This document shows, piece after piece, positions 27,697 through 30,585 of a stretch of 64,000 nucleotides of DNA. The notes beneath the pieces are model-generated. The model was not told where the DNA came from and ran no database searches. It worked only from the letters and a program-made list of their open reading frames with translations. This DNA is from Puniceicoccaceae bacterium Marseille-Q1082 (GTDB lineage Bacteria; Verrucomicrobiota; Verrucomicrobiia; Opitutales; Intestinicryptomonadaceae). Numbering within the stretch: position 1 is the first letter of the stretch; each line of letters opens with the position of its first letter. A program made the translations under genes and the position numbers. The DNA lies in assembly GCA_904424815.1 (NCBI GenBank), contig CAJGBI010000001.1, forward strand, positions 485,010-549,009, read 5' to 3'.

Positions 27697-28842
27697 ATGA
27701 GCGAAGGTTATCAGGTAATAGCGCGCAGGTACCGCCCAAAGCAGTTTTCCGAACTCGTCGGGCAGGAGCACATTGTGCGCACGCTCACCAACGCCATAGA
27801 GTCCGGCAGAATCGGCCACGCATATCTCTTCGTGGGGCCGCGCGGCACGGGCAAAACCACCGTTGCGCGCCTGTTCGCCAAGGCTCTCAACGCCAGGGGC
27901 GGCCCGAACGTACATCCGTCCGACGACGATGAAATATCGCAGGCGATAATGAACGGCTCCTGCATGGATGTCGTTGAAATAGACGGGGCGTCGAACCGCT
28001 CGATAGACGAAATCAGAAAGCTGCGCGAGGACTGCCAGTACGCCCCCGCGCAGTGCACCTATAAAATATACATAATAGACGAAGTCCACTCGCTGACTTC
28101 CGACGCCTTCAACGCCCTCCTCAAAACGCTCGAAGAGCCTCCGAAGCACGTCAAATTCATTTTCGCCACCACCGAGGCGCACAAGGTTTTGGGCACGATA
28201 ACATCGCGCTGCCAGCGCTTTGAATTCCGCCCGATACCGGAAGAGCTTATCGCAAAACACCTGTCGGAAATAGCCGCCAAAGAGAAGATAGAGGCCTCCG
28301 ACGGCGCCATACGCGCGATAGCCCGCCTCGCAAACGGCGGCATGCGCGACGCCCAGAGCATTCTCGACCAGATGATTTCGTTTTGCGGGACCAAACTTTC
28401 GGTCGAGGACGTAATCGGAGTCTACGGGCTCGCGTCCGACGGGCAGATTTCCGACATACTCTCCAATATGGCGAGGGGCGACTACGCCGGCGTCGTAAAA
28501 TGCGTCGACGGCCTCGTCGAGAGCGGTTGCGACCTCTACCGCGCGATGTGCGACATCCAAATCCGCCTGCGCGAGGCCATGATAAAGTCATTTTCTTCGG
28601 GGGAGTCGGATTTCGGCGGCAAGCCGCTTACGAGCGAGCAGATGATGCGCATGCTCGACGCCCTCCAAGGGTCGGAAAGGGGGCTTAAAAGCGGGCTCTC
28701 GGAAAAGGCAAACTTCGAGGTCGCCCTGTTGAAGGCCGTTGAGCAAAGCAGGGCGCGGGCGATAAACACGCTGATAAGAGAACTCGACAGGCTTTCTTCG
28801 GCGCCCGCCGAGACGCAAAAAAAAAATAGCCCTGCTGCTTAG
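27697..28842 (+). CDS. dnaX: DNA polymerase III gamma/tau subunit, short (gamma-like) form
   Basis: Clamp-loader ATPase. Read straight, the product is 381 residues, covering domains I-III: Walker A GPRGTGKT (47-54), Walker [11 protein letters not shown], and the SRC motif in TSRCQRFEF with the arginine finger. The frame ends soon after a run of ten A (28817-28826) with Asn-Ser-Pro-Ala-Ala-stop. A further 117 codons continue in the +1 frame and abut rmuC, so a longer tau-like product of about 493 residues is expected if one A is skipped. The four-cysteine zinc module normally following Walker A is absent between residues 65 and 87. The ATG at 27697 follows GGAGAG; upstream in-frame sequence is spacer. 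Confidence 0.92.
28817..28826 (+). other. A10 slippage site in dnaX
   Basis: Ten A in a row sit at the end of domain III coding sequence. With ten A the frame stops at 28840-28842; with eleven it stops at once (TAG); with nine, or twelve, it enters the 117-codon tail. The pattern resembles dnaX of Thermus thermophilus, where RNA polymerase slips on A9 to make gamma and tau. A homopolymer sequencing error is the alternative, but slippage would still be expected on such a run. Confidence 0.7.
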
Positions 28843-29179
28843 GGAGGTTTTGCGCGAATCGCGCGAGTTCGCCTTAGCGTACACCGAGAGCGTCGAGCGG
28901 CGCGCGCCCGCCCCGAAAGCGGAGGCGGGCGTGGAAATCCTCTCGGACCCCGCGGCGGGAAAGGCGTTCGGCGAGGGGACGCCGGAGTTTGAAGAGGGCG
29001 TTGACAAAATACCGAGGGAACTTTTGAAGCTTTTTGAGTCGCAGTTCGATTCGCGCCCGCAGGCGCTCGTCCGCGGGGCTTTGAGGTTTATCGGGCGCGA
29101 AGATGAATCGGCGGGGGCGTCGTCGCAGACCGAAGACGCCGAGACCATGAGGGAGCTGGAAGAGGAGGAGTCGGAATGA
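28826..29179 (+). CDS. dnaX: dnaX C-terminal (tau-like) tail in the +1 frame
   Basis: After the A10 run, the +1 frame reads [15 protein letters not shown] and then about 100 charged, Glu/Ala-rich residues, ending [10 protein letters not shown]. The TGA overlaps the rmuC ATG (ATGA), the same coupling seen between other genes here, which argues that ribosomes do translate this tail. It has no good start of its own: an AGGGAGG lies only 2-3 bases before a TTG at 28850. The tail is shorter than E. coli tau domains IV-V and I do not recognise a specific domain in it; contact with the polymerase or helicase is inference. Confidence 0.65.
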
Positions 29180-30585
29180 CCGTTTTGGCGTTTGCCGTAT
29201 TGTCCGCCGTTTGCGTTGCGGGGTTCGTTTTTGCGGCCGTTTTTTGCGCGGGAAAGTCGCGGGCTTCGGCGGAATGCGCGAGGGCGCGCGAAGCCCTCGC
29301 CGAATCAGAGGCTGGCCGCAAGTCGGCGCTGGAATCGCTCGAGAGGGTTCGGCGCGAATCGGAGGAGAGGCTCGCGGCAAAGGCGGAGGCGGAAAAGGGG
29401 CTCGCCGCCGCCAACCAGAAAATTTCCATGATGCAGGAGAGGCTCGCGGAGATGTCGGGGCACCTCGACGGAAAAATCACCGCGGAAAAGAGCCTCGCGG
29501 CGGCCCGCGGAGAGATAGAGTCGCTTTCGGCGCGCCTTAAAGAGCGCGAGAGCGCGGAAATGGAAATGCGCAGGAAGCTCGCGGCGGAATTTGAGGCGAT
29601 GTCTTCAAAGCTGCTCGAGGACGCGCGGGCGAAGATGTCGTCGGCAAACCTCGAACAGCTGTCCCTCGTTTTAAAGCCGATGAAGATGACTATTTCGGAT
29701 TTCCGCGAGCGCCTCGAATCTCTTAGCGAGATGGGCCTCAAAGGCCGCGCGGGGCTCGAGAAGCACATAGAAAGCCTCGTGAAGATGAACGCCCAGCTGT
29801 CGTCCGACGCACGCAATCTCGCCGAGGCGCTGCGGGGCGAAAACAAGGTAGCGGGCAACTGGGGCGAGGCGGTGTTCCACAGGATTCTCGAGGCGTGCGG
29901 CTTCAAGGAGGGCGTCCATTTCCGCTCGCAGGCGAGCTACGCGGATTCGGACGGCGAGCGCAAGAGGCTCGTGCCGGACTTCGTGATAGACCTCCCCGGG
30001 GGGCGTTCCATAGTGGTGGACTCCAAACTTTCGCTTTTGAGCTATTCGGACTACTGTTCGAGCCAAACGCCCGAGGCCAAGCGCGCCAACCTCGACAAGT
30101 TCAAGAAGTCGGTGCGCGCGCATTTGAGGGAGTTTTCCGGAAAGTACAACGACCTCCCCGACGCCCGCTGCGGGTTCAAGCTGATGTTTATGCCGGTCGA
30201 GCCCGCCTACGAGCTCGCCGTGTCCTCCGACCCCGCGCTGCTCGAAGACGCCTACGCCGCGAACGTCCTCGTCGTCGGGCCCGCCACGGTGATGTCGGTT
30301 TTAAAATACGCCGAAATATTGGTGAGGAACGAGGCGATTGCGAAGAACACGCGGCAGATAGCCGAAATCGGCGCGCGCCTCTACGAGCGCGTAAACCTTT
30401 TCATCAAAAGATTCGAAGTCGTCGGCGAGCGCATCAGAATGCTGTCCGAAGACTACGCCTCGGCCAAAACCACGCTCATGGAAAGCCCCAGGAGCGTGGC
30501 GGCGACCGCCAGGAGGCTCGGGGCGAAGTCGGGCGTGCTCGCGCTCGAAGCCGACGAACCGGAGGAAAGCGAAAATGGAAAATAA
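29176..30585 (+). CDS. rmuC: DNA recombination protein RmuC
   Basis: The 469-residue protein has one N-terminal membrane helix (VLAFAVLSAVCVAGFVFAAV), a long Glu/Arg/Ala-rich coiled coil (about 30-170) and the RmuC nuclease-like domain: NKVAGNWGEAVFHRILE, PDFVIDLPGGRSIVVDSKLS and the LMFMPVEPAYE segment. E. coli RmuC limits inversions at short repeats; the domain belongs to the PD-(D/E)XK-like fold. It overlaps the dnaX tail upstream by 4 bp and meaB downstream by 11 bp, so dnaX-rmuC-meaB are one transcription unit. Confidence 0.9.
   Translation: MTVLAFAVLSAVCVAGFVFAAVFCAGKSRASAECARAREALAESEAGRKSALESLERVRRESEERLAAKAEAEKGLAAANQKISMMQERLAEMSGHLDGKITAEKSLAAARGEIESLSARLKERESAEMEMRRKLAAEFEAMSSKLLEDARAKMSSANLEQLSLVLKPMKMTISDFRERLESLSEMGLKGRAGLEKHIESLVKMNAQLSSDARNLAEALRGENKVAGNWGEAVFHRILEACGFKEGVHFRSQASYADSDGERKRLVPDFVIDLPGGRSIVVDSKLSLLSYSDYCSSQTPEAKRANLDKFKKSVRAHLREFSGKYNDLPDARCGFKLMFMPVEPAYELAVSSDPALLEDAYAANVLVVGPATVMSVLKYAEILVRNEAIAKNTRQIAEIGARLYERVNLFIKRFEVVGERIRMLSEDYASAKTTLMESPRSVAATARRLGAKSGVLALEADEPEESENGK

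Follow-up and report, generated by a model that had tools for sequence, protein, structure and literature searches.

The window, a 64,000-nucleotide stretch of the Puniceicoccaceae bacterium Marseille-Q1082 genome (contig CAJGBI010000001.1, positions 485,010 to 549,009), carries on its plus strand a gene for the clamp-loader protein DnaX with a run of ten A residues (A10) close to the end of its reading frame. The templated frame extends from an ATG at 27697 to a TAG at 28840-28842 (27697..28842) and encodes a gamma-like subunit of 381 amino acids. This protein scores as DnaX (TIGR02397, 398 bits against a cut-off of 250); among Pfam families, PF13177 and PF22608 score above their cut-offs, and PF12169, which represents domain III, scores below its own. 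The run lies at 28817..28826, between the flanks gagacgc and tagccc, and its length determines where the frame ends. With ten A, the frame closes five codons past the run; with eleven, the next codon is a TAG (28827..28829); and with nine, the frame stays open for 117 codons (28826-29176) up to a TGA at 29177-29179. Twelve A lead to the same frame as nine. This open stretch, with its stop, forms the tau-specific tail (28826..29179), and by arithmetic the tau-like product of the nine-A frame has 493 amino acids. The tau stop overlaps the ATG of the next open reading frame (ORF), rmuC (29176..30585, plus strand; PF02646, E 7.3e-78), as an ATGA at 29176..29179. An earlier sequence-only reading had reported the ten A within dnaX, these three frame ends and products of about 381 and 493 residues; rereading the letters and the frame arithmetic confirmed each of them.

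We examined dnaX in related genomes and detected it in 34 of the 36 searched, the window's own included. The two without a match were G030 and, in the same genus, a single-contig genome (G010) whose examined stretches (4,000 bases) read N and are uninformative on dnaX. The nearest named relatives are uncultured members of Opitutales or Verrucomicrobiota, and several come from gut or rumen. The window's family is represented by 18 dnaX loci from three genera, the window and 17 others, of which one (L018) stops at the run, leaving 17 that inform on the tail. The family loci, which are identical at the junctions with L034-L050, derive mostly from fragmented metagenome assemblies of different projects. 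The run is exactly A10, in the same phase, in all 18, and neither A9 nor A11 occurs in any of them; as the loci are related by descent, such counts are not independent. The gamma bodies share 63-85% nucleotide identity, and the mean synonymous difference among the 15 loci with complete tails is 0.77, with synonymous sites near saturation. AAG makes up 48.7% of the 396 lysine codons in the family's dnaX genes, and none of the seven conserved lysine columns is all AAA, each mixing AAA and AAG, while the run is unbroken throughout.

These comparisons bear on whether a sequencing or assembly error added the tenth A to a gene whose true form is a single A9 frame. Homopolymers are error-prone on some platforms, and the sister group of the family in our tree mostly carries A9 with tau in the templated frame, both of which would fit such an error. 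Against it stands the same A10 in 17 relatives, mostly fragmented metagenome assemblies that, judged by their titles, belong to different projects. Since all 18 loci are exactly A10 despite near-saturated synonymous sites and mixed AAA and AAG lysines, we regard a sequencing slip at this position as effectively excluded.

The surrounding frames are also conserved. The templated frame closes within five codons of the run in 16 of the 17 informative loci and after 27 codons in the other, and a TAG or TAA directly follows the run in all 17. In the window and in the 16 other family loci with a readable tail, reaching tau takes one A fewer than the genome encodes. The first residue of the tail is isoleucine in 17/17 loci, similarity between the tails begins at the first codon past the run in every one, and all 15 complete tails run for 114-158 codons without a stop. 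The sequence-only reading had held the window's frames to be the arrangement expected for programmed slippage, a claim supported by the invariant A10, by a protein-like tail that starts at the run and by the closure of the other frames. We also considered the ATGA overlap with rmuC as a conserved coupling and rejected this idea, as ATGA is present in just 2 of the 15 family loci whose tail is complete.

Within the tail, differences at codon positions 1, 2 and 3 average 0.53, 0.47 and 0.70. The mean ratio of nonsynonymous to synonymous differences (pN/pS) is 0.66 in the tail and 0.20 in the body, values that are rough because synonymous sites are near saturation; the tail is clearly under weaker constraint than the body. 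A 22-row alignment of tails yielded the consensus motif IPxxLLxLxxxQF. In the same alignment, the family's tau tails end in a strongly acidic stretch (29080-29179 in the window) that is absent from the six more distant tails other than that of L057. Searches of Pfam and NCBIfam with the window's tail, and of PDB with the tail alignment, returned no match. A hidden Markov model (HMM) of the tails matched the assigned tau frame in every clear locus except three and contradicted none, although it was built from these same clear loci and only four ambiguous loci provide an independent test. If gamma alone were made, the tail would be a remnant or an independent ORF that begins at its own start codon. 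A TTG-started ORF is indeed present at 28850-29179, and the relaxed constraint and the lack of a known family would suit this explanation. Conversely, the similarity among tails begins at the first codon past the run, upstream of the TTG, in all 17 loci, and the tail HMM, with the circularity just mentioned, supports the called tau frame. We consider gamma-only expression very unlikely.

Runs of this length are rare in the genome, which comprises 2.70 Mb in 3 contigs. Counting both strands, we found 3 A10 where about 50 were expected (about 16-fold rarer) and 56 A9 where about 151 were expected, the expectations coming from a first-order model of bases derived from the window only. One of the other two A10 (L002) is, on the minus strand (L002 1501-1536), the T10 tract of a hairpin resembling a terminator, after a 189-amino-acid ORF; shuffled sequences average 0.9 such sites in the same scan. 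The other (L003) lies 109 bases beyond the end of a 298-amino-acid ORF. We considered L003 as a second slippage gene, as its A10 sits within a 409-amino-acid minus-strand ORF, but relatives match this ORF with many internal stops. The matched part is covered by the 298-amino-acid plus-strand ORF, and the longer ORF is therefore probably a shadow and its A10 intergenic. The dnaX run is the only A10 in the genome that can be placed in a gene body; the other two apparently lie outside genes. Because A10 is invariant in the family while its lysine columns mix AAA and AAG, and because A10 is depleted genome-wide, the run appears to be under selection.

Homopolymers this long are prone to replication slips, and the run could in principle vary in length at the DNA level, with nine-A cells making tau and ten-A cells failing to do so. 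Such phase variation is difficult to reconcile with 18 of 18 family assemblies at exactly A10, and a core replication subunit would be an odd target for on/off switching. We give it little credence.

We extended the comparison to the order Opitutales, using 156 distinct dnaX loci after duplicates had been merged by junction. We detected dnaX in 344 of the order's 372 genomes, and the loci compared represent only part of these; the named loci are the best 80 of 335 matches, and the sample leans to close relatives. A run of at least eight A is present near the boundary in 138 of the 156 loci, as A10 in 110, A9 in 25 and A8, A11 and A13 in one each. They vary in how tau is reached: one A fewer in 26, the templated frame in 27 and one A more in 81, with four loci ending too soon to call. 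Where a locus offered two long frames, as in L057, L170, L202 and L205, we assigned the direction with the tail HMM, for L057 weakly (9.4 against 2.5 bits). A quick tree of the order's dnaX genes implies a minimum of 10 changes among the three tau-direction states and 7 for 'one fewer', although these counts are rough, as 59 of 158 branches are open and a long-branch warning applies. Three families (f19, f20 and f22) each contain two states. As its sister group in the tree mostly carries A9 with tau templated, the window's family probably acquired its arrangement by one added A.

Both frames that do not lead to tau close within 10 codons of the run in 117 of the 134 loci of known direction. 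Only 17.2 would be expected from random positions in the same tails, a figure that assumes independence and, the loci being related, does not translate into a p-value.

Two mechanisms could produce tau from the window's gene, slippage by RNA polymerase and frameshifting by the ribosome. Known systems provide precedents for each. E. coli dnaX, in which tau is templated, uses -1 ribosomal frameshifting at A_AAA_AAG, aided by a Shine-Dalgarno element and a stem-loop (PMC5009743, PMC3711429). The window's gene resembles it in that one gene is predicted to yield two clamp-loader subunits with different C termini, but its run is longer, neither stimulator was found and its -1 frame closes immediately. 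When we compared the 60 nucleotides past the run with shuffles in 17 family loci, we detected no downstream RNA structure (mean z 0.33; lowest -1.34, in the window; 0/17 below -2). A four-base Shine-Dalgarno core precedes the run in four of these 17 loci, the window not among them, and no consistent upstream element emerged. The genome contains a tRNA-Lys with anticodon CUU (L294), and the reliance on a sole tRNA-Lys for both lysine codons, noted for E. coli in PMC5009743, is therefore not seen here; a pattern search gave no match for a tRNA-Lys UUU gene, which is presumed present. Atkins 2016 (PMC5009743) links tRNA-Lys(CUU) to the use of polymerase slippage in Thermus.

On the ribosomal explanation, a faithful ten-A mRNA would be read through by a +1 (or -2) shift, with sliding on the poly-A run. 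Ribosomes can also slip on A runs (PMC4363877), and E. coli-like heptamers stand in place of the run in two order loci. However, a shift from the templated gamma frame in the usual -1 direction meets a UAG immediately and yields no tau. The missing structure and the inconsistent Shine-Dalgarno cores also count against the ribosome, as does the closure of both other frames, though a -1 shift would need only one. Finally, the required direction changes among orthologues while the run persists. In Antonov 2013 (PMC3711429), the direction of ribosomal shifts is constant among orthologues and that of transcriptional slippage is free to vary; by this rule, the varying direction argues for transcriptional slippage in the order's dnaX. 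A transcriptional mechanism thus seems more likely than a ribosomal one, and we rate ribosomal frameshifting at the window's run as improbable.

The two loci with heptamers both lack A10. In L022, an in-frame AAAAAAG lies about 107 nucleotides past the conserved match; tau is templated, and the -1 frame meets a stop two codons later. In L090, which shares a contig with L213, an AAAAAAC lies about 35 nucleotides past the conserved match; the templated frame stops, and the -1 frame is open for 156 codons. In these two genes, slippage may have given way to ribosomal shifting.

Taken together, these comparisons suggest that the A10 of the window's dnaX is very probably a programmed transcriptional slippage site, through which one gene would supply a gamma-like subunit and, by a slip, tau. 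RNA polymerase would stutter on the run, and the resulting mixture of dnaX transcripts would include some with ten A, some with fewer and some with more. Messages with ten or eleven A would end just past the run and encode gamma-like DnaX, and those with nine or twelve would encode tau with its 117-residue tail, which we take to carry the polymerase-binding part, as in other bacteria. The genomes of the window's family would thus encode gamma and depend on a slip for tau. We infer the heterogeneous RNA, both proteins and their ratio from the comparison of sequences.

Several observations weigh against this proposal. Tau would require a deletion or a double insertion, and the studies in PMC6260861 mostly find insertion favored on A runs; with E. 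coli polymerase, no deletion was detectable on the runs tested there, of up to about 8 A, although the authors describe longer runs as variable in direction. Tau may therefore be made in minor amounts. The tail is fast-evolving and has no match in Pfam, NCBIfam or PDB. In addition, 18 of the 156 order loci lack such a run. The sequence-only reading had named relatives with no A run and a single uninterrupted frame as evidence against slippage; there are none within the family, but they do occur in part of the order and make up most of the genomes read outside it.

Slippage at dnaX is already known from Thermus, and dnaX genes that need recoding for tau have also been described, nine of them at A10. 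In Thermus thermophilus, slippage occurs at A9 and tau is templated, so that slips give gamma (PMC1088944 and PMC5009743). The window's gene shares with it a run of nine to ten A at the gamma/tau boundary and nearby stops in both other frames, but it differs in its A10 and in a templated gamma with a tau that would need the slip. Tau is templated, as in Thermus, in 27 of the 134 order loci of known direction. Antonov 2013 (PMC3711429) describes 17 two-ORF dnaX genes, nine with A10, all -1 frameshifts for which transcriptional slippage was proposed. Those genes likewise need recoding at a poly-A run to make tau. They gain it with one additional A, whereas in the window's family tau lies in the +1 frame, at one A fewer or two more. 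In the accessible literature on dnaX slippage, realignment and frameshifting, we found neither a dnaX with tau in the +1 frame nor a change of direction within Opitutales described.

We tentatively propose, as a possibility rather than a likelihood, that the selected trait of Opitutales dnaX is the run itself, nine to ten A with stops in both other frames, and not the templated frame. Slippage would be frequent enough for a one-base insertion or deletion in a core replication gene to be tolerated, the genomic frame would have drifted through all three phases with the supply of tau and gamma set by RNA polymerase, and the window's family would have fixed the deletion or double-insertion phase. 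If so, a core replication protein of a whole order would depend on RNA polymerase slips, and the genomic frame would have flipped about ten times with the tail retained. The order would then offer a natural series, with one gene, one run, three phases and A9 or A10, for relating slip direction to the tau:gamma ratio and for asking whether this ratio is under selection. Such dnaX genes may also be annotated as truncated or frameshifted.

The run is present in 21 of the 26 coded families sampled, and none was seen in f6, f7, f25, f27 or f28. The members of f7, f25, f27 and f28 (L165, L166, L171, L174-L177, L180 and L182-L185) have genomes of about 0.6-1.1 Mb and no A10 or A9 at the boundary; one of them, L185, has an A8 far off the boundary and was scored as lacking the run. 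In f26, with genomes of about 1 Mb, A9 is kept in 5/5 loci.

Outside the order, we examined 43 loci from other orders and classes, some of them chosen for a short open frame. A9 or A10 lies near the boundary in eight (L257-L259, L264-L266, L270 and L275), with the long tail reached by one A more in six and templated in two; most of the remaining loci have a single long frame and no run. The combination of a short templated frame with an A10 and a long frame that lies one A off also occurs in other classes of the phylum (L257, L258, L264, L265, L266 and L270).

Two minor irregularities were seen. In L082, a close relative of the A10-bearing L083, the run just past the conserved match measures only three A and no long frame lies nearby, reflecting either a lost tail or an assembly fault. 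Two genomes, G120 (C38 and C28) and G150 (C2 and C14), each contain two dnaX-like matches with about 60% identity to the query, which may reflect a duplication or mixed bins.
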